Below, piece by piece: positions 4,908-28,832 of a stretch of 64,000 nucleotides of DNA. Both the position numbers and the translations under genes were made by a program. Under the pieces are notes generated by a model, which made no database searches, was not told the origin of the DNA, and saw only the letters and a list, made by a program, of their open reading frames with translations. Location: assembly GCA_949948735.1 (NCBI GenBank), contig CATLGV010000002.1, positions 124,001 through 188,000 of the forward strand. Direction: 5' to 3'. Positions within the stretch are counted from its first letter, which is position 1, and each line of letters starts with the position of its first letter. Source of the DNA: an uncultured Lachnospiraceae bacterium. Its GTDB lineage: Bacteria > Bacillota > Clostridia > Lachnospirales > Lachnospiraceae.

Positions 4908-5900
4908 ATGAATAAGGTCACGATTAAGGATGTGGCGCGGGAGGCAGGCGTTTCCATTTCAACCGTATCAAATGCATTAAACGGAGTGGATGTCGTACAG
5001 CCAAAGACAAAAGAAAGGATATTAGAAGCAGCGGGGAGGCTGAATTATATTCCGAACCTGAACGGACGGAATTTGAAGGCTGCCGGGACAAAAGCGGCAG
5101 GGCTTTTCATTTCTTCCATGAGAGGCGCATTCTACGGGACGCTTGCCGACAGTATGTATTGGGAATGCTTAAAGTATGGATATGAGCTTTATATATACAT
5201 TACCCACAAAAATACCACAATAGTGAATAATATATTGGGACGGCGCGTAGATGCGGCGGTCATTTTATACGAGGGAGTTACGGATGAAACCGTAGAACGG
5301 CTGATACAGTCGGAAATCCCCGTTATCTTTTTGGATCGGGAGGTAAAGGGGAAGAATGCCTCGAGCATTGTTTTTGATTCCTTCCATGAAGGCGAGCAGG
5401 CAGGAGAATACCTGCTTAGCCTCGGAAATAAAAGCTTTGGGCATATTTACGGAGTAGAGGGAAATTATGACAGTATAAAGCGGTATGAAGGCTTTGTCCA
5501 TGCGCTGAAGCGGGCCGGAGTCACAATGGCGCTGGAAAACGTCCTGCCCGGCAGATTTGAGAAGGACGCTGCCTATCAGGAAGTAAAAAGATTTTTGGAG
5601 GAAGGCCATAAAGCACCGGATGCTTTTTTTGCGGCGAACGATTTGAGCGCTCTTGGATGCATTAGGGCCTTGACGGAGAAAGGGCTTCGCGTGCCTGAAG
5701 ACGTGCATGTGATCGGTTGTGACGATATTGAATTATGCGAGTTTGTCGATCCGAAGCTGACGACGATTCGTACTTCCTTTGAGACGATGGGTATAACGGT
5801 CGTCGACCATCTAATGGAATTAGTGGACAAAAAGCGGGGAGGAAGCATTGAGCGGATAAGCGGGAAAATTATAGAGAGGGATTCCTGTATGGCAAGGTGA
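4908..5900 (+). CDS. LacI/GalR-family transcriptional regulator
   Basis: 330 residues, the usual family length. The N-terminal helix-turn-helix (TIKDVAREAGVSISTVSNALNG, residues 5-26) is followed by the hinge region (LNYIPNLNGRNLKAAGT) and a periplasmic-binding-protein-like effector domain (from AAGLFISS onward; GHIYGVEGNYDS and GCDDIELCEFVDP are typical). It probably represses the downstream sugar genes until a sugar ligand binds. Palindromes with a central CG at its own start, before the GH3 gene and before the first binding-protein gene are the likely operators. The ligand is unknown but presumably an oligosaccharide made by the enzymes of this locus. Confidence 0.95.
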   Translation: MNKVTIKDVAREAGVSISTVSNALNGVDVVQPKTKERILEAAGRLNYIPNLNGRNLKAAGTKAAGLFISSMRGAFYGTLADSMYWECLKYGYELYIYITHKNTTIVNNILGRRVDAAVILYEGVTDETVERLIQSEIPVIFLDREVKGKNASSIVFDSFHEGEQAGEYLLSLGNKSFGHIYGVEGNYDSIKRYEGFVHALKRAGVTMALENVLPGRFEKDAAYQEVKRFLEEGHKAPDAFFAANDLSALGCIRALTEKGLRVPEDVHVIGCDDIELCEFVDPKLTTIRTSFETMGITVVDHLMELVDKKRGGSIERISGKIIERDSCMAR

Positions 5901-5985: not shown

Positions 5986-6078
5986 GAAATGCGGGGAAGG
6001 CTGAAGATTACGATTTTCAATCTACAGCTTTGTCACGAGCCCGAATTATCACGTTGAGAAAGGAGTATGGTTCGTAAA

Positions 6079-9950: not shown

Positions 9951-9967
9951 AGGGAATGGTAAAAAAT

Positions 9968-12062: not shown

Positions 12063-12122
12063 AAATTTACAAGATACAGCTCTTACATAGAGGAAGAGAA
12101 AAAGGCTAAGGGAGGAATGATT

Positions 12123-13856
12123 GTGAAGAGAAAAAAATTAGCAGCTTTACTTTTGGCAGTTACCATGACAGCAGGAAGTATTGCCGGATGCGGCAGTGAC
12201 GGAGGCGGCAGCCAGAACCCGGGCAGCAGCAGCGGCGGTGCGACAGAAGCTGCAGCCGGCGGAAGCAGCGAAGGCAGCGGGCAGGGAGAAACGGAAGGCG
12301 CAGGCGGCGACGCTGCGGAAGCCTTCGTTCAGCTGGATTCCAATATACAGGGCGATATTTCCATTATGGTATGGTCCGGCGACGGGGAATATTACGAGGA
12401 TATCGGGCATCAGACCTTAGAGGCGGAAAATATTACGGCTCAGAATGTTGCATCTGTTTATGTAATGGCCAAAAAATTCAATGAAAAGTATCCGAATGTG
12501 AAGATCAACGTATATGCAAAATCAGGCGATCCCAATGCAAATGATACTTCATGGCAGCAGGAGATGGAAAACTTCAAAGCGCAGCATGGGAAATATCCCG
12601 ATATCTGGGCGTCGACAAATCTGGTCGGGGATGTGGAAAAAGGCCTGGCAGCGGATCTCTCCGTATTTGCAGACGATCCGGTTTATCAGTCTTTCAATTC
12701 ATCCATCATGGAGATGATGAATTATTACGGCATGCAGGCGGGACTTCCGCAGTTTATTCAGCCGTGGGGCGTTTATATAAACAAGCAGCTGGCAGAGCAG
12801 AATAACATCGACGTGCCGGACACAAATTGGACGATCGATGACTATACATTGTTTATCTCCGAAGGCAATAAGACGACATTCTGGGGCGCAATGGATATTC
12901 CGCTCAGCTGGATCAATACAGGAACAAAGGATATTAACTATTCTCTCAGCAATTATGCGGGCAATGGCGATTATGTCAATCTGGATTCCGATGCGGTAAA
13001 GGATATGCTTTCCAAGGTTCCCGTGTGGGCAGACAATACCATCTGGTGTCAGAATGATGTGGGCGGCGTTCCGGAAGAGGTGATGAACGACGGCTCGTGG
13101 TGGAGCTACCAGTTCTTTGTAAAGGGATACTGCCTTGTGAATGACGGGGATCCCTGGATGATGGGCGATGCCGCCAATCCGGAGGTAACAGATAATACCG
13201 TGACCTTTGACTTTGATATTTATCCCAGACCGGCAACGGATTATGTTGGCAATACTGTAGGCGTTGTTCTTGATCCGATGGCGATTCACAATTATGCGAT
13301 GGATGACGGAAATCCCGAGCTCAGTGAAAGCGAGGAAGAATCTTTGAAGCTGGCATATACCTTTGGCACATTCTGGGTAGCTTCTACAGAGGCGGCGCAG
13401 GCGAGGGCTGACCAGCAGTGGAATTCCGGCGGGGCGTTAAAGACTGCTGCCAATGATTCGCTTCCGCTGGTAACCGGAGCGGAATTTGATAAACAGATGG
13501 AGATCTGGTACGCCGTACCGACGCATGCAAAGTATGCGGATGCATCCAAAATGCCGGGCTGGCATAAATGTATTGAGCTTTGGGAGAACGGGGATACATG
13601 GGATGTATCCGACAAGGCATACCCTCTTAAAATCCAGGAGGACGGCGTGGATAAGGCATGCATGTATGAATGGACTTATTACTATCAGGACGATGTAATG
13701 ACTGCAAAACGTGCTTCTGACGGATGGCTGGATGAGATTAAATCCAAGCTGCCGGAATGGAACAAGCTGGCAAACGAGAGATTTGCGGAGGCAGATAAGC
13801 ATTTAAGAGAGGCTCTGACCGACTTTTATGGCTACACGGAGGCGGATTTCAACTAA
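12123..13856 (+). CDS. Extracellular solute-binding lipoprotein (sugar ABC transporter)
   Basis: 577 residues. A lipoprotein signal peptide (KRKKLAALLLAVTMTAGSIAGC) ends in lipobox SIAGC, so the protein is tethered outside the membrane. A Gly/Ser/Glu-rich linker follows, then a large type-1 binding-protein fold (MAKKFNEKYPNVKINVYAK, KYPDIWASTNL, GLPQFIQPWGVYINK). It presumably captures oligosaccharides for the permeases downstream. The GTG at 12123 is chosen because GGAGG lies 7 bases upstream; the ATG at 12117 nearly touches it. The length is above the usual 400-450, suggesting a large ligand. It is first in the operon behind operator O3. Confidence 0.88.
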   Translation: MKRKKLAALLLAVTMTAGSIAGCGSDGGGSQNPGSSSGGATEAAAGGSSEGSGQGETEGAGGDAAEAFVQLDSNIQGDISIMVWSGDGEYYEDIGHQTLEAENITAQNVASVYVMAKKFNEKYPNVKINVYAKSGDPNANDTSWQQEMENFKAQHGKYPDIWASTNLVGDVEKGLAADLSVFADDPVYQSFNSSIMEMMNYYGMQAGLPQFIQPWGVYINKQLAEQNNIDVPDTNWTIDDYTLFISEGNKTTFWGAMDIPLSWINTGTKDINYSLSNYAGNGDYVNLDSDAVKDMLSKVPVWADNTIWCQNDVGGVPEEVMNDGSWWSYQFFVKGYCLVNDGDPWMMGDAANPEVTDNTVTFDFDIYPRPATDYVGNTVGVVLDPMAIHNYAMDDGNPELSESEEESLKLAYTFGTFWVASTEAAQARADQQWNSGGALKTAANDSLPLVTGAEFDKQMEIWYAVPTHAKYADASKMPGWHKCIELWENGDTWDVSDKAYPLKIQEDGVDKACMYEWTYYYQDDVMTAKRASDGWLDEIKSKLPEWNKLANERFAEADKHLREALTDFYGYTEADFN

Positions 13857-13883
13857 GCAAAAACCATATTAAAAGTATTATTG

Positions 13884-13942
13884 GTCCTTCTGCTCACAGA
13901 ATTTGGTAAAACGTATACTGAAGACTGGAAAAGCGGAAGGAC
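13884..13942 (+). promoter_or_regulatory. Intercistronic stem-loop between the two binding-protein genes
   Basis: An 11-pair stem (13884-13894 with 13932-13942, one G-U pair) encloses a loop of 37 bases and is followed by four T. It may partly terminate transcription, or stabilise the upstream mRNA, so that the first binding protein is made in excess. Confidence 0.45.
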
Positions 13943-13967
13943 TTTTCATATAAAGGAGTGGGCAGCG

Positions 13968-16946
13968 GTGGAGAAACGTAAGAGAGTTATTCTCATAACA
14001 ATTGCGGCAGCAGCGGTGGCGGCCGGATTGCTGGCAGTAAGCTTTGGAATGAACCAAAAGCCGGATTATGCGGAGGCGGTATCAGACGAAGAGGTCAGAG
14101 AAGCTTTTGCCTTACTGAACAGTTCGCTCAGCTTTGAGACTGTCAGATATCAGGATTATATTGCGGGGCGGGAAATACAATATGATTTAAAGGATGAAGC
14201 GTGCGAGCCTCTGGCAGGGGACACCGAAGAAAATTATGATAAAACGGTGAAAAAGCTGGATTATCAACAGACGGCGGAATATAAGGTGAAGGTAGATAAG
14301 GCAGGAATGTACAGTCTGGGATTGGATTATCATACGGGCGGCAGCAACCTGTCGGACTACCGAATCGGAATCACCATCAACGGCGAGCGCTATTTTGAAG
14401 AAATGTCCATGATCGCGCTCCCGCTTTTATGGACGGATGAAACAAAGACCTTTCCGTTAGACAGATACGGAGATGAGACGGCGCCGGCCCAGCTGAGGAA
14501 TGACGACTGGCAGTACAGGGATTTGTATAACACATCGTATTTTACGGCGGATCCACTGTATTTTTATCTGGAGCAGGGTGAAAACATCATCGAAATAGAA
14601 AATATTTCGGCAGACGGACTTACCATAGGAACGCTTTATGTGAAGGCGCCCGTTAATACGATACCGGATTACGCAGAATACATAAGCCTCCATGACGGAG
14701 AGCCGGCTTCGGAATTTATTGAAATTAACAGCGTGGACTATGCCCGTAAAAACTCGACCTCGGCGTTGTTGTCCTATGCAAATAATCCGGCGCTAAAGCC
14801 GCATGACAGCGAGTTTAAGGAATTAAATGTGGTGTCGTGGAAAGAGGCCGGCGTGGAGGTGGAGTATGAAATAGAAGCAGGGCAGACGGGCCTGTATCAG
14901 CTTGCGCTTCATTACAGAAACGAAAAAGAAGACTTTCAGGTATTTGAAAGCATCTTAATAGACGGCGAGGTGCCCTTTAAGGAGCTTCAGAATTATGGGT
15001 TTGATACAACGGATACGTCGTGGAAAAATGAAGTGCTTTCCGATGAAAACGGCAATCCCTACCAGATATATCTGACGCAGGGAAAACATACGCTGACCAT
15101 TAAATCCGAAATGGAGCCGGTAAGCGACGAGTGGCGCTACTCCCGTCTGATTGCCGAGCATGTAACGCAGTTTGCGCTGGAGATCAAAAAGATAACGGGC
15201 GCGGAGGTCGATGAGTACCGCACATGGTATATTACCCGGTACATTCCCGATACCCTGGGATATTTGGAGGCCTATGAGACCCTGATCAAATCCATGCAGA
15301 ACAGCTTGCAGGACTATGCGCCCAACGGAGTCAATTCCGCAAAGCTTTCCGAGCTGGACAGGGCGCTTGGCATTATTGAGAAATTAAAGGAATATCCGGA
15401 TGAAATCGCACTGTATACCGAAAATCTTACCGGCTCGAGCGTCAGCACGGACAACTCTATCTTAAAGCTGATGGGTGACTTTACAACGAACATCAGCGCG
15501 CAGCCCTTTGCGCTGGATAGAATTTATGTGTACGGCGAAGCGCAGGCGCTTCCCAAAGAGGAGGCGGGATTTATGAAGGCCTTGACAAACGGGGTGAAGA
15601 CGCTTGCCTATTCGTTTATATCCGATAAATACAAGGTTGAAAACGATGAAGAGGTATTGAATATATGGGTAAACCGTTCCGTCACGCAGGTGGATCTGCT
15701 TCAGAAAATGACAGATTCCGGGTTTACGCCGCAGACAGGAATCCGGGTAAAAATCTCCGTTATGCCGGATGTAAATAAGCTGACTATGGCAGCGGCGGCA
15801 AATGAAACGCCGGATTTGGCGCTGGGGCTTCCGTCGCATCTGCCCTTTGAGCTGGCGTGCAGGGATGCGATTTATGATCTGACTCAGTTTGAAGACTTTT
15901 GGGAGGTCGCCGACCGGTTCGCGCCGGGAGCGTTTGTCCCGTATGTATTTAACGAGGGTATTTATGCGCTTCCGGAAACCTCGGATTTCAACATGCTGGT
16001 TTATCGGAAAGACATTTTTGAAAAATTAAATATAGCGGTTCCGGATACGTGGGAGGAGCTGCAGGGAATCTTACCGGAGCTGCAGCGCTATGGTATGAAC
16101 TTCTATCATAATATCGCAACGGTCGACGGGTACAAGTGGTTTTATCAGACGACGCCGCTTATCTATCAGAACGGCGGCAGCTTATATACGGAAGACGGCC
16201 TGCACACCGCAATCGATCAGCCGGAGGCGGTACGCGGCATAAAGACTCTGGGGGAATTGTTCAGCATTTATTCCGTACCTACGCAGGTGCCGCAGTTTGC
16301 GGACTCGTTCCGCTATGGCGTATATCCGATTGGCATTGTGAATCTGGAGACGTACAATCTGATTACCAACGGGGCGCCGGAGCTGGAAGGACAGTGGGAG
16401 CTTGTCGCTTATCCGGGAACAGAGAGAGAGGACGGATACATCGACAGGAGCTATATTGCAGCGGGTACGGGAGGCATTATTTTCAGCGATTCGGAAAAAA
16501 CGCAAGAGGCATGGACGTTTATGAAGTGGTGGCTGGGCCACGACATACAGGCGGAGTATTCGCATACCTTACAGGCGACTTACGGTTCGGAAAATATCTG
16601 GCTTCCGTCCAATCTGGAGGCAATCGCCGATTGCGTGCTGCCTACAGACGATAAGCTGGCGATTTTGGAGCAGCTTACTTATTTGAGGGACGTGCCAAGA
16701 ACACCCGGACAGTATATGCTGGAACGCGATATCTCTAATATCTGGAACAGCGTTGCGGTAGACGGCGAAGCGGCGCAGCCTGCAATCGATGAAAAGATTA
16801 TGGAAATCAATCGTGAAATTACAAAGAAAATGTCGGATCTTGGCTATGTAGACACAAACGGTAATTTATTAAAGGAATACCACATTCACGATGTGGACTG
16901 GATTAAGGAAAATATGGAAGCGCACAGGAAGGAGGGAGAACAATGA
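13968..16946 (+). CDS. Membrane-anchored giant binding protein: two sandwich-like repeats plus a solute-binding domain
   Basis: 992 residues from GTG 13968 (AAAGGAG 8 bases upstream; the open frame begins 29 codons earlier without a signal). An N-terminal membrane helix (residues 7-25) has no lipobox. Two beta-rich regions follow, at about 105-230 and 298-385. They share a pattern (AGMYSLGLDYH.. and TGLYQLALHYR.., then a strand with INGERYFEEM or IDGEVPFKEL, then YLEQGENIIEIE or YLTQGKHTLTIK), so they look like a duplicated carbohydrate-binding-like sandwich. The last 430 residues are a family-1 solute-binding fold (IPDTWEELQGILPELQRYG-like helices, AYPGTERED, TFMKWWLG). The 3' end overlaps the first permease gene by 4 bases. 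It probably presents bound glycan to the transporter. Confidence 0.75.
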   Translation: MEKRKRVILITIAAAAVAAGLLAVSFGMNQKPDYAEAVSDEEVREAFALLNSSLSFETVRYQDYIAGREIQYDLKDEACEPLAGDTEENYDKTVKKLDYQQTAEYKVKVDKAGMYSLGLDYHTGGSNLSDYRIGITINGERYFEEMSMIALPLLWTDETKTFPLDRYGDETAPAQLRNDDWQYRDLYNTSYFTADPLYFYLEQGENIIEIENISADGLTIGTLYVKAPVNTIPDYAEYISLHDGEPASEFIEINSVDYARKNSTSALLSYANNPALKPHDSEFKELNVVSWKEAGVEVEYEIEAGQTGLYQLALHYRNEKEDFQVFESILIDGEVPFKELQNYGFDTTDTSWKNEVLSDENGNPYQIYLTQGKHTLTIKSEMEPVSDEWRYSRLIAEHVTQFALEIKKITGAEVDEYRTWYITRYIPDTLGYLEAYETLIKSMQNSLQDYAPNGVNSAKLSELDRALGIIEKLKEYPDEIALYTENLTGSSVSTDNSILKLMGDFTTNISAQPFALDRIYVYGEAQALPKEEAGFMKALTNGVKTLAYSFISDKYKVENDEEVLNIWVNRSVTQVDLLQKMTDSGFTPQTGIRVKISVMPDVNKLTMAAAANETPDLALGLPSHLPFELACRDAIYDLTQFEDFWEVADRFAPGAFVPYVFNEGIYALPETSDFNMLVYRKDIFEKLNIAVPDTWEELQGILPELQRYGMNFYHNIATVDGYKWFYQTTPLIYQNGGSLYTEDGLHTAIDQPEAVRGIKTLGELFSIYSVPTQVPQFADSFRYGVYPIGIVNLETYNLITNGAPELEGQWELVAYPGTEREDGYIDRSYIAAGTGGIIFSDSEKTQEAWTFMKWWLGHDIQAEYSHTLQATYGSENIWLPSNLEAIADCVLPTDDKLAILEQLTYLRDVPRTPGQYMLERDISNIWNSVAVDGEAAQPAIDEKIMEINREITKKMSDLGYVDTNGNLLKEYHIHDVDWIKENMEAHRKEGEQ

Positions 16947-17866
16947 AGGCAATGACCAAAAGGAAACAGAGAAAGGTGAACAGAAGAGAAGACTTTGTAA
17001 CCTCCATGCTGCTGTTACTGCCCTATCTTTTGTTGTTTTCTCTGTTTATAGCGATTCCCGTGCTGGTTGCGATTGGGCTGTCCTTTACCTATTTTGATGT
17101 GATCAATACGCCGGTTTTTACGGGGGTTTCCAATTATATTTCGCTTATGACACAGGACGAGATTTTCTTAAAATACATCATTCCAAACACGTTTAAATAT
17201 GCGCTGATTGTGGGACCGGGCGGATGTATCCTTTCTTTCTTACTGGCATGGCTCGTGACGCAGATACAGGCGGTCCCAAGAACGGTTTTGACGCTCTGCC
17301 TGTACCTGCCGTCCATGGTAGGGACGCTGATGATTCAGGTCGTGTGGAAAACCATATTTTCAGGAGATCAGCGAGGTATTTTAAACGCTTTCCTGATCAG
17401 CCACGGCTGGATAGAGGTGCCGGTCAACTGGCTGCTTTCGCCGGATTATCTTTTAACGGTAATGATCATTGTCGCGCTGTGGCAGGCAATGGGTATCGGT
17501 TTCCTTGCCATGATAGCGGGGATTTTAAACGTAAATGAAGAGCTTTATGAGGCGGCGTATGTGGATGGCATGAAGAACCGTTTTCAGGAGGTGCTGTACA
17601 TTACCATTCCTTCCATGAAGCCGCAGATGATGTTTGCGGCGGTTATGGCAATCGTAAATGCCTTTAATACGGGCTGGATCGGACCTGCGCTTGCAGGGAC
17701 GAATCCTACGCCGGCTTATTCGGGCAACCTGATTCTGAATCATATTGAAGATTATGCGTTTTCCAGATATGAAATGGGATATGCGGCGGCGGTTTCGGTG
17801 GTACTGCTGCTTATGATCGCATTCTTCTCGAAGGTGGCAGGGAAGCTGTTTTCAGAGAAGGGCTAG
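16943..17866 (+). CDS. Sugar ABC transporter permease (MalF/LplB type)
   Basis: 307 residues with about six membrane helices and a basic N terminus. The ATPase-docking EAA loop (EAAYVDGMKN, near residue 203) is intact. The start overlaps the stop codon of the giant binding protein gene (ATGA), so the two are translationally coupled and the proteins probably form one complex. It pairs with the next permease. No ATPase gene lies in the locus; a shared MsmK/MsmX-type ATPase elsewhere is expected, as usual for CUT1 systems in this phylum. Confidence 0.93.
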   Translation: MKAMTKRKQRKVNRREDFVTSMLLLLPYLLLFSLFIAIPVLVAIGLSFTYFDVINTPVFTGVSNYISLMTQDEIFLKYIIPNTFKYALIVGPGGCILSFLLAWLVTQIQAVPRTVLTLCLYLPSMVGTLMIQVVWKTIFSGDQRGILNAFLISHGWIEVPVNWLLSPDYLLTVMIIVALWQAMGIGFLAMIAGILNVNEELYEAAYVDGMKNRFQEVLYITIPSMKPQMMFAAVMAIVNAFNTGWIGPALAGTNPTPAYSGNLILNHIEDYAFSRYEMGYAAAVSVVLLLMIAFFSKVAGKLFSEKG

Positions 17867-17919
17867 GAAGAAGAACCTGATTGACAAAGCGCCGATGGTG
17901 CGGATTGGAGTTATTATTT

Positions 17920-18798
17920 ATGGCGAAATCAAAATTAAAAGGGAAAAGAGTGGATCCAAAACATTTTTCGCGGGATCAGATCAAATTTTACTGCATATTG
18001 ATACCTGCCGCTATTTTGATGGTTCTTCCGGTCGTATACATGTTTAACGAAGCATTTAAGCCGTTGGGAGAATTGTACGCATTCCCGCCTACGCTGATTG
18101 TGAAGGATCCTACGCTCAATAATTTTAAAAATTTGTTCGAGCTGTCGGGAACGACGGGCGTTCCCATGACAAGGTATCTGCTGAATTCCATTTTTATCAC
18201 GGTAGTTACGGTGGTCTTAAATATATATATTACAGTGGCATGCGCATTTGTATTGTCGAAGAAAGGCCAGTATAAAGTAACCAAATGGTTCTTCAGCGTC
18301 AACCAGATGGCATTGATGTTCGTGCAGGTAGCGGTGGCCGTACCAAGATATATCATTATCGTAAAGCTTGGCATGATCGATACGTGGGCCGCGCACATAT
18401 TTCCGCTGATTGCAATGCCGATTGGAATATTTCTGATGAAGCAGTTTATTGACGATGTGCCGGACGCCCTGCTGGAGGCGGCTTATGTGGACGGCGCGGG
18501 AAACTTCACCGTGATACGGAAGATTATATTTCCGATGACAAAGCCGGCGGTGGCGACGGTGGCGATTCTGACATTTCAGTCGGCATGGCAGGCAACGGAG
18601 GCGTCGAATAATTTCATTACCAGTGATGTGATGAAGACGATTTACTATTATTTGAACGCCCTACAGACAAACAACGCAGTGGCGGCGAGAGGCATCGTGG
18701 CGGCAGGCACTATTATTTTGTTCATACCGAACCTGATTATGTTTATCTGCATGCAGTCAAGAGTTATGAGTACGATGAGCCACTCCGGTATTAAGTAA
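17920..18798 (+). CDS. Sugar ABC transporter permease (MalG/LplC type)
   Basis: 292 residues from ATG 17920, preceded by TTGGAG at a spacing of 9; the frame extends 13 codons further upstream without a signal. About six membrane helices and an EAA loop (EAAYVDGAGN, near residue 186). It forms the inner-membrane channel with the preceding permease. The gap of 53 bases between the two is short, so they are one operon. Confidence 0.92.
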   Translation: MAKSKLKGKRVDPKHFSRDQIKFYCILIPAAILMVLPVVYMFNEAFKPLGELYAFPPTLIVKDPTLNNFKNLFELSGTTGVPMTRYLLNSIFITVVTVVLNIYITVACAFVLSKKGQYKVTKWFFSVNQMALMFVQVAVAVPRYIIIVKLGMIDTWAAHIFPLIAMPIGIFLMKQFIDDVPDALLEAAYVDGAGNFTVIRKIIFPMTKPAVATVAILTFQSAWQATEASNNFITSDVMKTIYYYLNALQTNNAVAARGIVAAGTIILFIPNLIMFICMQSRVMSTMSHSGIK

Positions 18799-18815
18799 AG
18801 GGGGAATAGGGTGAG

Positions 18816-20843
18816 ATGAAAAAAAATAGACAGATACTGGCCGCGATACTGATCGCATTGATCTGTTTTGTAAATACGGCTACAATACGGGCCTCTGAGG
18901 CGACGAGCTATACCTATACCCAGGACGATAAAATGGATCCCATCCGTACACAGGATGCATATCTGCCGCAGCAGACCATTACGGGAATCGGGTTGAATGC
19001 GGCGGAGGATATGTTTATTGACAGCAGCAATATGATGTATATTGCCGATACCGGAAACGCGCGGATTGTAAAATATGATATTAACAGCGGGACGGCGGCG
19101 GAGGAATTTACGTATCCGGAATTTCAGACGCCAAAGGGGATTTATGTAACCCTGACTGGCGAGGTCTATGTGGCGGACAGCAAGGCAAAAGCGGTTTTTG
19201 TATTTGATAAGAACTGGGAGCTGATTCAAAAATTGGAAAGGCCGCAGGTGCCGGCGTTTGGCGATACGGCCTATGAGCCCTCCAAGGTAGCGGCGGATGA
19301 GAGCGGAAATATATATATTGTCGGCGAAGGCGTTTACAACGGCGTGATTCAAATGTCCGGGGACGGTGAGTTTTTAGGCTTTTTTGCCGTGAATAAGGCG
19401 AATCTGAGCCTGTTCCAGAAGATTCAGACGCTGGTGTTTACCAGAGAGCAGCTGGGCAGGATGTTAAACCGCAATCCTACGACCTTTGCCAACGTTATGC
19501 TGGATTACCGCGGTATTGTTTATACGGTAACCTTAGGGGAGAATCAGGATCCCATTAAAAAGCATAAGACGAACGGAAGTAATATGTTTGCGGATACAGT
19601 CTACGGATTTACGGATATCAGCGATATCTGGGTTGACGATAATCTGTTGATTTATGCTTCTTCAAAGCGGGGCTATGTGGATGTATATACGCCGGAAGGA
19701 GAATGGCTTTTTGAATTTGGCTCGTATGTCTCCAATCTGGATGTGGCGGGCCTGTACAGCTCGCTTTCTACGCTGGCAGTCGATCAGAACGGTTACATAT
19801 GGACCATAGACAGCATTAAGGGATATTTACAGTCCTATGCGCCTACTTCCTATGCGGAAAAGGTGTATGAAGCGTTAAAGCTCTATGACGGCGGACATTA
19901 CGAAGAAGCGTTAGCGGTCTGGGACGAGGTGCTGGCCATGAACCAGATGTCCGTAGTGGCGCATGACGGCATCGGAAAAGCCTATATGTCAAAGTATGAC
20001 TTTGAAAGCGCGATGGCGCATTTTGAGGTTGCCGGTAACCATGAATTGTTTTCACAGGCTTTCTGGGAGCTTCGGAATGACTGGCTTCAAAAATATCTGA
20101 AATACATCCTGATCGCGGCCGCAATAGCGTATGCTGCGGCGGTAATCGTTGGCAGGGTGGATAAGGAAGAGAGGATAAAGTCCGAAAAAGCCCGGATAAA
20201 GCAGAAAATTGTAAGCCTGAAGGGCGTGGGCGACACCTTGTACGGTTTTCAGACGGCAAGGCATCCCCTGGACGGTTTCTATGATATTCGCATACAGAAG
20301 AAGGGCACCGTGCTTGGCGCCAGTATTTTATACGGGCTGCTTTTTATCTCCTTTATGCTGTTTATGCTGGGAAAGGGATTTATTTACCAGTACTACGATG
20401 TACAGGATCTGGATATTGGCTCTATTGTGGTCGGTTTTTTTGCCTTTATCGGATTATTTGTAGTGTGCAATTACTTAGTGACCTCCATCAATGACGGGGA
20501 AGGCAGCTTAAAGCAGGTGTTTATGACGGTGGCGTATGCGGCAGTGCCGTTGATTTTGGCGCTGCTCTCCATTACAGTATTGTCCTATTTCGTTACGACA
20601 AACGAAGCGTTTTTCCTTGACGTAATAATGCTGATTGGTGCCGCATGGACGGCGGTACTGCTCTTTCTGGGGCTGCAGACGGTACATAACTATACGGTAA
20701 AGGAAACGATAAAGGGAATTCTGCTCACGGCGCTGTTTATGTTTGTGGTGGTCATAGTGGTTTTGATTGTTACGATTATGTGGGAGCAGGTCTGGAAATT
20801 CCTCAGTACGATAGGAAAGGAGCTGGTACAGAATGTATTGTAA
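18816..20843 (+). CDS. NHL-repeat, TPR and Yip1-like membrane protein
   Basis: 675 residues. A signal sequence (1-26) is followed by an NHL-type beta-propeller from about 55 to 330 (repeats such as DMFIDSSNMMYIADTGNARIVKYD, GIYVTLTGEVYVADSKAKAV and LAVDQNGYIWTIDS). A TPR-like helical pair lies at about 345-415 (YDGGHYEEALAVWDEVLAMN, YDFESAMAHF). A membrane helix comes near 425, and the last 170 residues are a five-helix Yip1-like membrane domain. The propeller and TPR would be extracellular. It sits between two permease pairs and overlaps the next gene by 11 bases, so it probably has a structural or sensing role in glycan capture. No catalytic motif is seen. Confidence 0.7.
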   Translation: MKKNRQILAAILIALICFVNTATIRASEATSYTYTQDDKMDPIRTQDAYLPQQTITGIGLNAAEDMFIDSSNMMYIADTGNARIVKYDINSGTAAEEFTYPEFQTPKGIYVTLTGEVYVADSKAKAVFVFDKNWELIQKLERPQVPAFGDTAYEPSKVAADESGNIYIVGEGVYNGVIQMSGDGEFLGFFAVNKANLSLFQKIQTLVFTREQLGRMLNRNPTTFANVMLDYRGIVYTVTLGENQDPIKKHKTNGSNMFADTVYGFTDISDIWVDDNLLIYASSKRGYVDVYTPEGEWLFEFGSYVSNLDVAGLYSSLSTLAVDQNGYIWTIDSIKGYLQSYAPTSYAEKVYEALKLYDGGHYEEALAVWDEVLAMNQMSVVAHDGIGKAYMSKYDFESAMAHFEVAGNHELFSQAFWELRNDWLQKYLKYILIAAAIAYAAAVIVGRVDKEERIKSEKARIKQKIVSLKGVGDTLYGFQTARHPLDGFYDIRIQKKGTVLGASILYGLLFISFMLFMLGKGFIYQYYDVQDLDIGSIVVGFFAFIGLFVVCNYLVTSINDGEGSLKQVFMTVAYAAVPLILALLSITVLSYFVTTNEAFFLDVIMLIGAAWTAVLLFLGLQTVHNYTVKETIKGILLTALFMFVVVIVVLIVTIMWEQVWKFLSTIGKELVQNVL

Positions 20844-23229
20844 GACGAAAAAGAAACGAATGGCCGTTATGATGGCGCTGTGCATGACGGCAGGCGCACT
20901 GCTGCCGGGCGGCAGGGTACATGCGGAATATATCAATACCAATCGAGATACGCTCCTTCCCGAGGAAGCGATGGAGATCAAGGAAGCGGATGTGACGGGG
21001 TACGAAAAGCTCTACGAAACGGATACGGCGATTTATTATTTCCGGGACGACAGAGATATTATAGCCGTGCTGGATAAAGAAAACGGCTATCTCTGGAAGA
21101 CCGGCCTGGATGCGGAGGCGTCAAAAAAGCTGAAGGCAAAGGCACTCAGCGCGTCTACGGAAGAAGACTTTGAGGAATTGGAAAATAATCCGATCGAAGA
21201 CAATATGAATGAAATCTATACGGATATGGCCAATTCCCTGATTACGGTGGAATACAGAACGCCGGACGCTGTCGAAAATCTGAAAAAGGCTTCTTCGGCG
21301 TCATCAGGCTCCGAATCTGCGCTTTCCAAGCTTGCGAAAAACCAGTATTGTCTGGATATTGATTTTAAGGAAATGGATCTGCGGATGAAGGTGTATATCA
21401 CCTTTGGGGAAAAGGAAATCCGGTATGATATTCCTTACGCGGAGCTTGACGGCGAGGGAAAAAAGAGTATGACTGCCGTTTATATTACGCCGTTTCTGGG
21501 GGCAAGCGGCGGGCAGATATTACGATTTGACAGGGAGAGCGGCGGCTACGATATTGCAGAGAAAAAGGATACGCCCTCCGGTTATGCCTTTGTACCTGAC
21601 GGAAGCGGCGCGCTGATTCGCTTCAGGGATAACAACGTAGCCTTTCAGGAATATGCAGGCGACGTGTACGGTGCGGATCCCTCGCAGGGAGAATATTATT
21701 ATACGGAGCTGACGGACGCGATTCCGCTGAAGGATCCGGTCATGCCGGTATTCGGCGTCGCGTACGGAAACGATCAGGCGGCTTTTGTGGCTTATGCGGA
21801 TGAAGGGGACGAATATATGCATATTGTCTGTACCCCTGAGGAGAACATGACATATTACACATGGACCTGCGCCAGATTTATTTATAATCTGAGGTATCAT
21901 CAGGTCTATAATAAGGCGGGAGACGGATATTTTGCGATTATGGAAGAGCCGAACGCCTTTGATATTTCCATGACGTACCGGTTCTTAAGCGGGGACGGAA
22001 GCGGAAGCACAGAGGCGGCGAATTATGTAGGAATGGCGCTTACCTACAGGGCGCATTTGATTGAGCAGGGAATCCTGACCGAGCGTACGCCCGATGATAC
22101 GAATATACCGATACGTTTGGATTTCATTATGTCCGATGCAAAGAGCAGCGTAGTGGGCATGAAAAATGTAGTGGTGACTACTACGGAGGATGTAAGGGCT
22201 GTTTTGAATGAGGTCATGGCGAAGGGCATCACCAATATTAATACCGGGTTGAGCGGATGGCAGAAAAAGGGCGCAAGCTTTTCCAGACCCTATACGCGGA
22301 AATATTCCTCCAAAATAGGAAGCAAGTCGGATTTTCAGAAGCTGATTGCGGATTTTGCCCAAAAGGGTGTGGACATTTCCTGCGAAGGAGATTATATAAC
22401 GATCAATAAGAGCATGCTCAGCTATTATAATACGGCGGTAAAGCATGTCAACTCCTGGTATGCGTTTGTAGATAAGTCCAACCTTCTGCCGTCAACGGCG
22501 CCGCTTGCCCAGTTTGGCTTTGCCAGACCTGAGAAAAGCGCGGAGTGGCTGCTGGAGCAGTATAGCCATACGAAGAATCAGGCTGCATCCATGACAATCG
22601 ACGGAATCGGTTCGGTGCTTACCGGCGATTACTCCGGCTCCCGGCACACAACCGTAAGCGATGCGGTCGTACTTTATCAGGAAACGCTTTCCTCGATGGA
22701 AGAGGTAAAAACCAATATAAAAAATCCGGGTATGTATTTATGGCAGTATACGGACAGGTATCTGCAGGCGCCGGTGGGGCATTCACAGTATATTTTCGAG
22801 ACGGACGCGGTGCCGTTCTTACAGCTGGTACTGAACGGTACGATGGAGATGTATGCGCCTTATGCAAATTTTTCATTTTACACACAGAAGGATATTTTGA
22901 AGATGATAGACTACAACCTGAGTCCGTCGTTTATTTTGACAAAGGAGCCTTCTTACAAGCTGGCGGATACGGTCAGCGCAGATTTATATTCTACGGAATA
23001 CAGCCTTTATGCCGGGCTGATTCAGGATATTTATACGCAGGTCAATACGGTTCTGAAAGAGGTAAACGGATATAGGTGGTCGAATCGAATCGTGGCGCAA
23101 AACGGTGTGATCGTAAACGTATACGAGAAGGACGGCCGGACAAAGGAAATCATCATTAATTATACCGATGAAACGGTGACCATACACGGCACAGAGGTGG
23201 CGCCGCTTAGCGCCGTATTTGCAGGCTGA
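20833..23229 (+). CDS. Secreted DUF5696-like protein
   Basis: 798 residues. The signal peptide (basic start, hydrophobic core, cleavage near GGRVHAEY at about 32) marks it as exported; no lipobox is seen. The body is one long mixed alpha/beta region with segments such as YYFRDDRDIIAVLDKENGYLWKTG, SGYAFVPDGSGALIRF and MYAPYANFSFY, which I associate with DUF5696 proteins found beside sugar ABC transporters. A barrel-type glycosidase-like fold is possible, but no catalytic pair can be named. The start overlaps the NHL-TPR-Yip1 gene and has AAAGGAG 10 bases upstream, so the two are coupled. Confidence 0.6.
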   Translation: MYCKTKKKRMAVMMALCMTAGALLPGGRVHAEYINTNRDTLLPEEAMEIKEADVTGYEKLYETDTAIYYFRDDRDIIAVLDKENGYLWKTGLDAEASKKLKAKALSASTEEDFEELENNPIEDNMNEIYTDMANSLITVEYRTPDAVENLKKASSASSGSESALSKLAKNQYCLDIDFKEMDLRMKVYITFGEKEIRYDIPYAELDGEGKKSMTAVYITPFLGASGGQILRFDRESGGYDIAEKKDTPSGYAFVPDGSGALIRFRDNNVAFQEYAGDVYGADPSQGEYYYTELTDAIPLKDPVMPVFGVAYGNDQAAFVAYADEGDEYMHIVCTPEENMTYYTWTCARFIYNLRYHQVYNKAGDGYFAIMEEPNAFDISMTYRFLSGDGSGSTEAANYVGMALTYRAHLIEQGILTERTPDDTNIPIRLDFIMSDAKSSVVGMKNVVVTTTEDVRAVLNEVMAKGITNINTGLSGWQKKGASFSRPYTRKYSSKIGSKSDFQKLIADFAQKGVDISCEGDYITINKSMLSYYNTAVKHVNSWYAFVDKSNLLPSTAPLAQFGFARPEKSAEWLLEQYSHTKNQAASMTIDGIGSVLTGDYSGSRHTTVSDAVVLYQETLSSMEEVKTNIKNPGMYLWQYTDRYLQAPVGHSQYIFETDAVPFLQLVLNGTMEMYAPYANFSFYTQKDILKMIDYNLSPSFILTKEPSYKLADTVSADLYSTEYSLYAGLIQDIYTQVNTVLKEVNGYRWSNRIVAQNGVIVNVYEKDGRTKEIIINYTDETVTIHGTEVAPLSAVFAG

Positions 23230-23248
23230 GTAAGAATGGAGGAGTATT

Positions 23249-24157
23249 ATGTCGGAAAAAAACAAAAAAGTACATAAAACAAAATCCTTTCAAAGAAGAC
23301 AGGATAAGTACGGTTATTTATTTATGCTGCCGTGGATTGTCGGTTTTGTAGTATTTACGATGATTCCCTTTGTGATGACGGTGTACTTGAGCTTTACGGA
23401 GGTAAAGCAGGATATCAGGGGATTTAACATTAAGTTTACGGGAATTTACAATTACAGGCAGGCCTTTTTCGTGAATACGGATTTTACGCCGGCACTGGTA
23501 TCCTTCCTTGGGATGATCATTCCCTATACGGTAGTAATTGTCATTATGGCGTTTATTCTTGCCATGCTGTTAAATACGATTGTGAAAGGAAAATCCGTAT
23601 TCCGGACGATTTACTTTTTGCCGGTGGTCGTTCTTTCGGGGCCTGTCATGTACCAGCTGATGAATCTGAATCCGGAGGTGGAGGGGCAGGTCAACGAGCT
23701 GTATTATACCTTTTTGATTCGGATGATATACAGCTATTCCCCGATAGCGGCAGGCGCGATGGTCTCCCTGTTTGACAATCTCTCGATTATCTTATGGTAT
23801 ACGGGTATTCCGATTGTGCTTTTTATAAACGGACTGCAAAAGATTAATCCCAGTCTTTATGAGGCGGCAAGGATTGATTCTGCAACAAACTGGCAGATTT
23901 TGTGGAAGATCACAATGCCGATTATCCGTCCTACTGCGCTGATTGTTACGGTTTTTACCATCGTGCAGTTAGGGGCAATGGATACGATCAATCCGGTGCT
24001 TGTTATGATCAAGGAGAGGACGGCAAATACCAGCGGCGGGTTTGGCTATGCGGCTACGATTTCATGGATATACAGTCTGATTGTGCTTGCAATCATCGGC
24101 GCCGCATTCTTACTGTTCCGTGAGAGGAAAATAAAAGAAACCCATAAATACTGGTAA
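23249..24157 (+). CDS. Sugar ABC transporter permease (MalF type, second pair)
   Basis: 302 residues with six predicted membrane helices and an EAA loop (EAARIDSATN, Glu205). It follows the DUF5696-like gene by 19 bases with a GGAGG site. The sequence clearly differs from the permease at 16943, so this is a second transporter and not a duplicate copy. It has no binding-protein gene of its own nearby; the lipoprotein at 12123 or the giant binding protein may serve it. Confidence 0.93.
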   Translation: MSEKNKKVHKTKSFQRRQDKYGYLFMLPWIVGFVVFTMIPFVMTVYLSFTEVKQDIRGFNIKFTGIYNYRQAFFVNTDFTPALVSFLGMIIPYTVVIVIMAFILAMLLNTIVKGKSVFRTIYFLPVVVLSGPVMYQLMNLNPEVEGQVNELYYTFLIRMIYSYSPIAAGAMVSLFDNLSIILWYTGIPIVLFINGLQKINPSLYEAARIDSATNWQILWKITMPIIRPTALIVTVFTIVQLGAMDTINPVLVMIKERTANTSGGFGYAATISWIYSLIVLAIIGAAFLLFRERKIKETHKYW

Positions 24158-24170
24158 AGGAGGCAATGTA

Positions 24171-25067
24171 ATGGCAAAACGCATAGGAAAAGCAGTAACA
24201 TATTTTCTCTTAATCTGCATTGGATATATATATTTGGAGCCGATTTTCCAGATGGTTTCCAAATCGCTGATGTCCGCGTCGGATGTAATCGATCCCTCCA
24301 TAGAGTGGCTGTCGAAATCGCCCACGTTAAACAACTTTAAGGTGGCGGCAAAGGTATTGAAAATGCCGAAAAGCCTGATCAACTCTATTTGCTTTTCGGC
24401 AGGGCTTGCGATATTACAGACAACGGTAGCGGCAATGACGGGATACGCGCTTTCCAGATTTAAATTTCGACTCAAAAATTTCTGGTTTGTTATGATTCTG
24501 CTGGCATTTATTATTCCGACGGCCCTTTTGATGATTCCGAGACTGATCATCTTTATTACGGTGCAGCAGAGCACAGGCGTACAGCTGATTGGCACGCCGG
24601 TTCCGCAGGTGCTTATGGCGATACTGGGGCAGGGCGTAAACGGGACGATTTTGATTCTGATATTTTGGAACTTTTTTAACTTAATACCGTACTCTCTGGA
24701 TGAGGCGGCAATGATTGACGGCGCGGGACCGTTTCAGATTTTCTTTCATATTGCCGTGAAGCTGTCCTTTGCCACGGTGCTGATCGTATTCCTTTTTGCC
24801 TTTGTATGGAACTGGAATGAAACGTATCAGACCTCCACTTTCCTGGGCGGCACGATGGAGCTGCTGCCGATGAAGCTGTCCGTATTTGACAGTCAGTTTG
24901 AAACTGCGTCCAGCTCGGGTATCGGCGCGGGCGGAACCTTTAAGATCAATGAAGCGTATAAAATGGCTGCGACCTTAATATCGATTGTGCCGTTATTGCT
25001 TTTATACGCCTGCGTACAGAAGCAGTTCATACAGGGTATCGAAAATACGGGCATTACCGGAGAGTAG
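24171..25067 (+). CDS. Sugar ABC transporter permease (MalG type, second pair)
   Basis: 298 residues, about six membrane helices, EAA loop EAAMIDGAGP (Glu178). It follows its partner by 13 bases with an AAAGGAGG site. It completes the second permease pair of the locus and precedes the GH16-GH5 lipoprotein gene by 11 bases. Confidence 0.92.
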   Translation: MAKRIGKAVTYFLLICIGYIYLEPIFQMVSKSLMSASDVIDPSIEWLSKSPTLNNFKVAAKVLKMPKSLINSICFSAGLAILQTTVAAMTGYALSRFKFRLKNFWFVMILLAFIIPTALLMIPRLIIFITVQQSTGVQLIGTPVPQVLMAILGQGVNGTILILIFWNFFNLIPYSLDEAAMIDGAGPFQIFFHIAVKLSFATVLIVFLFAFVWNWNETYQTSTFLGGTMELLPMKLSVFDSQFETASSSGIGAGGTFKINEAYKMAATLISIVPLLLLYACVQKQFIQGIENTGITGE

Positions 25068-25078
25068 GAGATCGGCAT

Positions 25079-27277
25079 ATGAAAAAATGGAAGAAGGCAA
25101 TGTGCCTTGTGATGACAGTGGCCCTGACAGGCGGCTGCGGAAAGGCGGAGCGCACGGCAGAGAATGCGGAAACGGCAGGAGCGGCACAGTCGGAGGAGGC
25201 AGAGGGCAGCCCGTTTCAGACAAGGGTGGGGACGAAGGTACCCGATGCCTTTCTGGAAAAAGAAGAGGGAAAGGAAGAGGATGTGAAAGCAAAGAACGTT
25301 ACTTATGATTCGGAGCACATGGACTACAGGCTGGTGTGGTGTGATGAGTTCGATTATGAAGGAAAACCTGATGAAACCAAATGGGGGTATGATACAGGCG
25401 GAAGCGGATGGGGAAACCAGGAGCTTCAATACTATACGGATGACGGGAACGCGTGGGTGGAAGACGATAAGCTGATTATAGAGCTTCGCAAAGAGGACAT
25501 GGGGGAGCGGGAATATACTTCTGCGCGTCTGATCTCCAAGGGGAAAGGGGACTGGACATACGGAAAGCTTGAGGTGCGTGCAAAGCTGCCTTCGGGGCTT
25601 GGCACATGGCCTGCGATTTGGATGCTCCCCACCGACTGGGTATATGGCGGCTGGCCTGCCTCCGGTGAAATCGATATTATGGAGCATGTGGGATATGATC
25701 CGGATGTAATTCATGGATCCATCCATACGCAGTCCTATTATCACAGCATCGGAACGCAGAAGACCGGTACCGTTAAGGTAGAAGGAGTCAGTGAGGACTT
25801 TCATGTGTATGCGGTGGAATGGCTTCCCGACAAAATTCGCTTTTTTGCGGATGATGAAGAGTATTTTTCTTTTACGCCCACGGATTTTAAGGAAAGCCCG
25901 ACGTATAAAGAATGGCCCTTTGATGCCAAAATGCATCTGCTCTTAAATATTGCGTACGGCGGAAGCTGGGGTGGAGCGAAGGGCGTGGACGACGAGGTGC
26001 TTCCTGTCAGGATGGAGGTAGATTATGTGCGTGTATACCAAAGTCCCCAGGTCAGCGACATAAAACGTGAGGAAAAGGAAGTGGAAAATCCGATGTTGAA
26101 AGCAGATGGAAAAGTATTGCGCGACGATGGAGGAAACGGCGATATTGTGCAGCTTAAGGGTGTGAATGCGGGAGGGTATCTTTTGCAGGAATTCTGGATG
26201 ACGCCTACAGGGTGGAGCGAGAATGTAAGCGCGGAGGAAGATATTTTTGCGGTTTTGGAGGAACGCTTCGGCAAAGCAACAAGAGAGGAGCTGGTAGCAC
26301 TTTATCAGGACAACTACTGGACGGAGGAGGATTTTGACTTTTGCAGGGAGCTTGGCATAAATTGTATCCGGCTTCCGTTTTGGTACCGCAATCTGGTGGA
26401 TGAGAACGGTGACTTTTATCCTGACTGGAGCAAGAGGATCGACTGGTTTGTGGAGGAGGCGGGAAAGCGGCAGATCTATGTCATTCTGGATATGCACGGC
26501 GCGCCCGGCTCCCAAAACGGATCTGACCATTCCGCAAAAGACGGGGGAGATCACAAAGAGGAAGCTTCGGCGTTTTTCTTTGGTGATACAGCGGAAGAAA
26601 ATCAGGCGCTTTACTATAAAATCTGGGAAGAACTGGCAGCCCATTATAAAGACAATCCCTGGGTAGCCGGCTATGACCTGCTGAACGAGCCCTACTGTAC
26701 CTATCGGTATCATTCCTCTAAATCGGCGGATGAATTGCACAGGATGCTTTGGGATATTTATCATACTGCTTATGAAAAAATCCGCAGGATTGACGGAAAT
26801 CATCTGATCATTATGGAGGCCACGTGGGACCCGGCGGATCTGCCCGACCCCAAAGCGTACGGCTGGGAAAATATTATGTATGAGTACCACAATTATCTCT
26901 ATGACGATTATGATAATAAAGCGGGCAGACAGATTACAAATATGCAGAATAAGCTGAAGCTGATTGCAGAGGCGGACTACAATGTGCCAAGCTATATGGG
27001 GGAATTTGCCTACTTTAACAATTTAGAGGCATGGGATGAAGGGTTGGCGCTGATCAACGACTGCGGACTTAACTGGACGACGTGGACTTACAAAGTAGTG
27101 GAGGAGTACGGAAACTGGGGACTGCGCAACCAAAAGAATGCCAATCTGAATCTGGAGACGGCGTCTTTGGAGGAGATTAAAGAAGCCTGGTCCAGGGTAG
27201 GTGAATCGGAGGAAAATACAGGGCTGCGGCAGGTATTGGAAAAATACTGTCAAAAGGTGTATATTTCCGCAAAATAA
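25079..27277 (+). CDS. GH16-GH5 fusion lipoprotein, probable beta-1,3-glucanase
   Basis: 732 residues. The lipoprotein signal ends at Cys20 (ALTGGC), so it is displayed on the cell surface. The GH16 domain (about 75-325) has the catalytic E-x-D-x-x-E as GEIDIMEH (Glu197, Asp199, Glu202) and TWPAIWMLP, typical of laminarinases. The GH5 domain (about 340-715) has acid/base Glu537 in LLNEPY and nucleophile Glu642 in YMGEFAYF. LDMHGAPGSQNGSDHS resembles exo-1,3-glucanases of the yeast Exg1 group. The fusion could cut beta-1,3-glucan internally and trim the ends. It is the last gene of the LacI locus. Confidence 0.9.
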   Translation: MKKWKKAMCLVMTVALTGGCGKAERTAENAETAGAAQSEEAEGSPFQTRVGTKVPDAFLEKEEGKEEDVKAKNVTYDSEHMDYRLVWCDEFDYEGKPDETKWGYDTGGSGWGNQELQYYTDDGNAWVEDDKLIIELRKEDMGEREYTSARLISKGKGDWTYGKLEVRAKLPSGLGTWPAIWMLPTDWVYGGWPASGEIDIMEHVGYDPDVIHGSIHTQSYYHSIGTQKTGTVKVEGVSEDFHVYAVEWLPDKIRFFADDEEYFSFTPTDFKESPTYKEWPFDAKMHLLLNIAYGGSWGGAKGVDDEVLPVRMEVDYVRVYQSPQVSDIKREEKEVENPMLKADGKVLRDDGGNGDIVQLKGVNAGGYLLQEFWMTPTGWSENVSAEEDIFAVLEERFGKATREELVALYQDNYWTEEDFDFCRELGINCIRLPFWYRNLVDENGDFYPDWSKRIDWFVEEAGKRQIYVILDMHGAPGSQNGSDHSAKDGGDHKEEASAFFFGDTAEENQALYYKIWEELAAHYKDNPWVAGYDLLNEPYCTYRYHSSKSADELHRMLWDIYHTAYEKIRRIDGNHLIIMEATWDPADLPDPKAYGWENIMYEYHNYLYDDYDNKAGRQITNMQNKLKLIAEADYNVPSYMGEFAYFNNLEAWDEGLALINDCGLNWTTWTYKVVEEYGNWGLRNQKNANLNLETASLEEIKEAWSRVGESEENTGLRQVLEKYCQKVYISAK

Positions 27278-28703: not shown

Positions 28704-28832
28704 GATGAAATGAAAGACAATTTTTTTAGAATATTCGAGAAATTAACAAGACAAAATGTTCCCCCAAAGCAGGAGAAGGCAAAGGGGCCGCTCGCTGCGG
28801 GAGCATATCGCAAAAGTGGAGGTAAGAGCGAA

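Follow-up and report, generated by a model that had tools for sequence, protein, structure and literature searches.

A 64,000-nucleotide stretch of an uncultured Lachnospiraceae genome (hereafter the window; contig CATLGV010000002.1, positions 124,001 to 188,000) carries a gene module built around a DUF5696 protein and two sets of ABC (ATP-binding cassette) permeases, and the order of its core genes recurs in other bacteria, from both gut and soil, far beyond chance. We read this conserved eight-to-nine-gene module as a composite ABC importer for polysaccharide fragments in which DUF5696 would be a binding or scaffold part, a reading to which we assign a probability of roughly 0.55. At the window locus, nine same-direction genes span 12117-27277 with intergenic distances of -11 to 111 bases, in the order SBP-B, SBP-A, A1, A2, NHL-TPR-Yip1, DUF5696, B1, B2 and GH16-GH5, where SBP denotes a solute-binding protein, A and B the permeases and GH a glycoside hydrolase family. 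The module bears on the question of how gut bacteria with a single membrane take hold of polysaccharide fragments in the absence of SusCD, and its distinctive parts (DUF5696, Yip1 and NHL) bear names without a known function in this setting.

SBP-A, the giant solute-binding protein (992 residues; 13968..16946, +), starts at a GTG with AAAGGAG shortly upstream and overlaps permease A1 (16943..17866, +) by 4 bases. For permease A2 (17920..18798, +), the open reading frame list gives a TTG start at 17881, and the ATG at 17920 is likelier. The NHL-TPR-Yip1 gene (18816..20843, +) encodes an NHL propeller, a weak TPR region, a membrane segment (residues 428-446) and a Yip1 domain (480-649), and shares 11 bases with the DUF5696 gene (20833..23229, +). 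Permeases B1 (23249..24157, +) and B2 (24171..25067, +) follow. All four permeases belong to BPD_transp_1; B1 is divergent, scoring 21.6 bits against a Pfam cut-off of 26.4 and 274 bits with its family hidden Markov model (HMM). Upstream of SBP-A lies the second solute-binding lipoprotein, SBP-B (12117..13856, +; lipobox Cys25), for which Pfam gives no match at E 0.01 and which is recognized by its family HMM (267 bits); its counterparts in the two other module copies of the host genome (L004 and L005) match SBP_bac_1. A solute-binding protein with two BPD_transp_1 permeases is the composition of a CUT1-type importer. The first-pass annotation had described SBP-A, NHL-TPR-Yip1 and DUF5696 as a linked trio between two permease pairs. 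Its gene coordinates and both overlaps are borne out on the sequence, and Pfam confirms the SBP, NHL, Yip1 and DUF5696 domains, but the TPR match (20.1 bits) falls below its cut-off of 26.8. NHL-TPR-Yip1 and DUF5696 do lie between the pairs, whereas SBP-A precedes the first; the linkage is real, but the set is larger and includes SBP-B and both permease pairs.

The host genome holds three DUF5696 copies (the window, L004 and L005), and the core order in L004 and L005 (SBP-A, A1, A2, NHL, Yip1, DUF5696, B1, B2) matches that of the window; SBP-B comes first in the window copy and at the far end in both others. Module family HMMs were built from these three copies and extended on 80 loci of named genomes, the best 80 of 193 by DUF5696 similarity. 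The closest named DUF5696 relatives are from Lachnospiraceae and Acetatifactor metagenome-assembled genomes (MAGs; 72% identity), and the gene map is near-constant across Lachnospiraceae, Oscillospiraceae, Paenibacillus, a Bacillus, Acholeplasmataceae, a Limnochordia MAG and Treponema. Among loci whose contig extends far enough in both directions, 56 of 56 have SBP-A, NHL and one or more permeases upstream of DUF5696 and both B1 and B2 downstream; SBP-B is present in 50 of these. Considering each side separately, NHL falls at most two genes upstream of DUF5696 in 71/71 loci with room, SBP-A upstream in 63/64, A1 in 63/64 and A2 in 60/64, while B1 follows downstream in 72/72 and B2 in 71/72. 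Three of the four A2 misses (L007, L008 and L036) are effects of the overlap filter or of gene calling: L007 and L008 have an A2 match, and L036 shows a 612-base gap where A2 is expected.

The same association is seen in a phylum-wide sample of 398 genomes that was not ranked by DUF5696 similarity (the NHL re-search covered 396). Full-length DUF5696 occurs in 37 of the 398, and all 37 also have SBP-A and NHL; the finding that the first-pass annotation named as refuting, rare co-occurrence of the three families, is thus contradicted. Long-type SBP-A is found in 40 genomes and NHL in 38 of 396. These figures use 58 of 75 DUF5696 matches (17 weak or short ones dropped; 46 genomes at E 0.001, 39 above the cut-off), 52 of 62 SBP-A matches (10 dropped from five genomes, all of one family in which the SBP domain alone matched, which leaves 40 of 45 genomes) and 51 of 64 NHL matches (13 Yip1-only ones dropped), limits that were chosen after the lists had been inspected. 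A hypergeometric calculation gives 5e-49 for the co-occurrence, a figure that ignores kinship and indicates scale alone. The SBP-A-only genomes (G080, G104 and G154) show no partners because their contigs, of 3112, 3788 and 4307 bases, are too short; SBP-A is followed there by permease genes and then by the contig end. Linkage counts are lower bounds, since scoring of SBP-A and NHL was confined to two candidates in each genome and many of the contigs are short. A same-strand NHL gene lies no more than 2.5 kb upstream of DUF5696 for 43/58 matches (35/37 genomes), and none lies downstream; SBP-A lies within 9 kb for 34/58 matches (29/37 genomes), 28 upstream and 6 downstream. The latter six copies, in G180, G205, G385, G331 and G342, represent a rearranged module. 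In the host's family, DUF5696 is present in 44 of 200 genomes (E 1e-30), and a single genome can hold as many as six matches; the module is therefore accessory and sometimes multi-copy. A chance neighborhood is ruled out by the gene order recurring in the 80 loci together with the phylum co-occurrence. Distance correlations lacked an unlinked control and were given no weight.

In the window, Yip1 makes up the C-terminus of the NHL protein; a separate gene of ~219 codons encodes it in 50 of 82 mapped loci, including L004 and L005, with Pfam confirmation for L030 and L005. As Yip1 is found both fused and separate, the NHL and Yip1 products likely work together. By PDB sequence match, the NHL propeller resembles that of the kinase PknD, which forms the outer domain there and has a sensor role. 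This match lends something to a looser alternative, namely that the genes are merely co-regulated and co-transferred, with NHL-TPR-Yip1 a membrane sensor or assembly factor, no standing complex and a separate sugar for each importer. Two complete importers with different solute-binding proteins, and an SBP-B that may sit either upstream or downstream of the core, would also suit it. We nonetheless consider it unlikely, given the fixed proximity of NHL to DUF5696, the overlapping genes and the finding that no other gene, including any regulator or kinase, is constant in the mapped loci.

DUF5696 is a relative of GH129. The Pfam match of the window protein to DUF5696 (E 7.8e-139) is its sole one at E 0.01, with none to the Pfam GH129 model (PF11308), which also finds nothing in the host genome at E 0.001. 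A structural model, together with profile comparisons of two kinds, nevertheless places the overall fold (a beta-sandwich, a TIM-type (beta/alpha)8 barrel and a C-terminal beta domain) with GH129, ruling out DUF5696 as an unknown fold. An ordinary GH13-like enzyme was likewise rejected; the DUF5696 model scores weakly in T. maritima and L. lactis, probably through the shared barrel, and the same probably holds for short matches in the phylum sample that are GH13-like by length alone. For residue-level comparison, the window's DUF5696 protein was aligned with its counterparts from 68 of the 80 loci (alignment A2; alignments A3 and A4 comprise 53 and 57). Matching alignment A2 to the single sequence L115 with hhalign was uninformative (E 0.027, 74 columns), but a seven-member GH129 alignment, A7, resolved the correspondence. 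The GH129 nucleophile (Asp435 of NagBb, Asp486 of DagB) aligns with column 591, which is Asp in 44/69 sequences; the window has Gly591 with an adjoining Asp590. Taking columns 590 and 591 together, 51/69 sequences have Asp, 10/69 Glu alone and 8/69 neither. The acid/base Glu, presumably Glu478 of NagBb, lies within the SEGGND/SEEVND motif of the GH129 members of A7 and is not kept: the window has Asn631, Glu occupies column 631 in 1/69 and column 630 in 4/69, and the residue is missing from 64/69. The NagBb motifs YLHLDGW and GIHDQYRD, of which HLDGW and HDQYRD have a metal role, are not kept in DUF5696 either. The first-pass view that the trio lacks known enzymatic motifs is incomplete, as DUF5696 has the whole GH129-type fold, albeit with a defective acid/base site. 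A strong hydrophobic N-terminus is found in 73 of 76 DUF5696 relatives, with AxA just after the segment in 7. One GH129-type protein, L121 (from G325), carries SVGGHD in place of SEGGND and matches the DUF5696 model weakly (25.7 bits); it is a possible intermediate between GH129 and DUF5696.

The role of DUF5696 is probably non-catalytic. The alternative is a working exo-glycosidase whose acid catalyst has been rewired, as in DagB; it would trim chains at the membrane before import and leave the module as two importers plus a membrane-bound hydrolase. The full GH129 fold and the Asp or Glu at or beside the nucleophile column in 61/69 sequences are compatible with this. According to the available text of PMC5698469, DagB works with different acids, among them Asp202, which the partner monomer contributes; the window residue Asp282 occupies a column that is Asp in 60/69 and Asn in 9/69, and its spacing before a 'PVFG'-type strand is similar to that of DagB Asp202, as counted rather than superposed. 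We regard an active enzyme as doubtful because the acid/base position has no conserved Glu or Asp, 8/69 sequences have no acid where the nucleophile would sit, the window protein carries Gly in the aligned column with Asp beside it, and the active-site acids vary while gene order stays constant.

SBP-A, matched by SBP_bac_8/1 in Pfam, has an N-terminal hydrophobic segment without Cys, two domains resembling carbohydrate-binding modules (CBMs) at residues ~36-232 (D1) and ~258-385 (D2), a helical linker and an SBP domain at ~559-968. In PDB profile searches, D1 matches an exo-beta-D-glucosaminidase (7.1e-5) and D2 a CITase (4.4e-10), in stretches that we take to be CBM35. Among 42 sequences, D2 is recognized by Pfam as CBM_6 in 7 and CBM_35 in 6, and D1 as Golvesin_C in 14, CBM_35 in 8 and CBM_6 in 1; the window protein has no CBM match in Pfam at E 0.01. 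The assignment of the N-terminal region rests on profile searches because the SBP domain fills the Foldseek and VIA lists, from which that region is missing. SBP-B is the most divergent module part (median identity 22% over 53 loci), and 46 of its 55 relatives have a lipobox. In host copy L004, a 628-residue protein with three CBM65 repeats is encoded between permease B2 and SBP-B (7893-9779, -); L072 also has a CBM65 protein, and like-sized proteins occupy that position in L045, L073 and L050. The tandem CBM-like domains of SBP-A, nearby polysaccharide hydrolases and varying copy number fit the glycan-capture role suggested in the first-pass annotation.

Flank scans (72 of 83 and 63 of 66 proteins, drawn from 106 and 140 plus-strand flank proteins of at least ~800 bases) returned GH16, GH5, GH3, GH2, GH13, GH43, GH10, GH26 and CBM65 among the 25 commonest families, and the variety of hydrolases suggests that module copies probably serve different glycans. 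A GH16-type gene lies 3' of the module in the window, L006, L009 and L011 (in L009 by 74% identity to L006). Together with GH5 and GH3 at the window, it points to a beta-1,3-type glucan as the likely substrate there and at these three loci. The window module has no ATPase gene. One OB_MalK match was found in the host genome (84% complete), outside the window, and this ATPase probably serves both importers, a pairing that we infer.

Several observations weigh against a composite importer with a non-catalytic DUF5696. L027 has no SBP-A in 6.6 kb upstream, the sole such case among the 64 loci, and in G243 an NHL fragment sits at the end of a contig whose further ~7.7 kb hold no other module gene. 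With two candidates scored per genome, 15/58 DUF5696 matches have no scored NHL within 2.5 kb and 24/58 no scored SBP-A within 9 kb; some may be true exceptions to the linkage. Co-occurrence and synteny could also follow from joint regulation and transfer as a unit. With regard to catalysis, the available text of PMC5698469 describes the GH129-like DagB as active without the second catalytic residue of NagBb, so loss of a single Glu is no proof that DUF5696 is inactive. The close relatives L006 and L009 have a Glu beside the acid/base position, though without a nucleophile acid. In the window DUF5696, no N-terminal stretch exceeds the hydrophobicity cut-off, and this end of the protein may be removed by cleavage instead of acting as an anchor. 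Finally, L004 shows no obvious hydrolase in ~6 kb downstream and has its CBM65 protein inside the module. This last locus would also suit a non-dietary cargo, such as envelope glycans or exopolysaccharide fragments, with the adjoining hydrolases coincidental in many loci. Carriage by Treponema and Acholeplasmataceae and the adjacency of HlyD-type genes and a large probable permease in at least eight loci lean the same way. We find such a cargo very unlikely in view of the several polysaccharide hydrolase families in the flanks, the CBM-like domains on SBP-A and the LacI-type regulator at the window locus.

For the composite importer, we propose the following division of labor. Secreted neighboring hydrolases would cut the polysaccharide and set the substrate. 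Two CUT1-type importers, A and B, would be made together and share one MalK-type ATPase encoded elsewhere. SBP-A would be held at the membrane by its own N-terminal segment beside A1 and A2, its CBM-like domains catching a chain and its C-terminal SBP domain presenting the end or a released fragment to these permeases, while the lipoprotein SBP-B would feed B1 and B2. NHL-TPR with its Yip1 membrane domain and the DUF5696 barrel would form an extracytoplasmic, mostly membrane-tethered framework that organizes uptake, with DUF5696 binding or positioning glycans, or stabilizing the importers, rather than hydrolyzing; sugar contact could occur through the former active-site cleft. A bolder version is a standing supercomplex in which both permease pairs sit on an NHL-TPR-Yip1 scaffold and the degenerate glycosidase DUF5696 is a fixed subunit that receives polysaccharide fragments from SBP-A and threads or passes them to one of the importers, the other being supplied by SBP-B. 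We advance this version only tentatively.

Other genes of the window locus are variable cargo or neighbors. The GH16-GH5 two-domain enzyme (25079..27277, +) begins 11 bases 3' of permease B2 and is not part of the core. Upstream, GH3 (6067-8862, +), a GH88-like gene (8856-9950, +) and DUF2264 (9875-11872, +) are likewise variable cargo, preceded by a LacI-type gene (4908..5900, +) that is possibly the local regulator. In the GH3 protein the domain order is swapped, the C-terminal domain (residues 26-284) preceding the N-terminal catalytic domain (493-793). A 397-residue charged protein, probably a coiled coil and with no NCBIfam match near the cut-off, is encoded 3' of GH16-GH5 (27414-28607). 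The gene at 28710-31286 resembles glycogen phosphorylase by eye, and an 839-codon open frame antisense to it (28743-31262, -) is likely a codon-usage artefact. Elsewhere, L033 carries from 15618 onward, 3' of the module, an HlyD-type adaptor, a second large HlyD-like protein and a large probable FtsX-type permease; like-sized exporter-type genes adjoin the module in L028, L032, L057, L066, L069, L079 and L083.

A description of the module was not found in a literature search limited to open-licence papers. The work provides a precise gene set, a fold and a probable non-catalytic role for DUF5696, and would place the bacterial Yip1 domain in a defined machine; there is a real chance that this variant of the ABC sugar importer is a new type of transport machine. 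Among the closest known systems are the beta-1,2-glucooligosaccharide-binding protein Lin1841 (5ysb) and the CUT1-type importers of Gram-positive polysaccharide utilization loci (gpPULs). The available text of PMC5320581 reports ABC systems and no SusCD homologues in R. intestinalis and E. rectale strains. Like the gpPULs, the module brings a solute-binding protein and two BPD_transp_1 permeases together with a regulator and hydrolases at a single locus. It differs in that two importers flank NHL-TPR, Yip1 and a GH129-like protein, and in an SBP-A that lacks a lipobox and carries CBM-like domains in the same chain; neither NHL nor Yip1 is mentioned in the main text of that study. 

In Bacteroidota, SusC/SusD couples glycan capture to uptake and occurs in several copies per genome with differing neighbors. 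The first-pass annotation had proposed a Gram-positive counterpart, and the role fits: here too capture would be linked to uptake, in multiple copies with differing neighbors. The parts and place differ, however, and the parallel is one of analogy. The module has ABC energetics, with no TonB-dependent barrel or SusD among the scanned window genes (4908-27277). Treponema has two membranes, so the module there is probably at the inner membrane, and Acholeplasmataceae have no cell wall; its presence in both shows that the Gram-positive surface is not its only setting.

Relative to the GH129 proteins NagBb (5wzn) and DagB (5opq), DUF5696 stands apart in being encoded between ABC permeases and in the widespread loss of the acid/base Glu, although DagB homologues, and L121 in alignment A7, also lack this residue of NagBb. 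DagB/ZgGH129 was put forward by its authors as a family of its own (PMC5698469, available text). By analogy, with no homology claimed, the nearest role model for a tethered DUF5696 barrel may be the heavy subunits 4F2hc and rBAT, in which a single-anchor, extracellular glycosidase-like barrel is paired with a transporter and whose ectodomains are titled 'fake or orphan' glucosidases (PMC8537225, available text). As given there, these are vertebrate proteins of alpha-amylase (GH13) type that serve amino-acid transporters. Should the supercomplex prove true, the module would define a new class of sugar importer and offer a parallel, in bacteria, to the heavy chains 4F2hc and rBAT.

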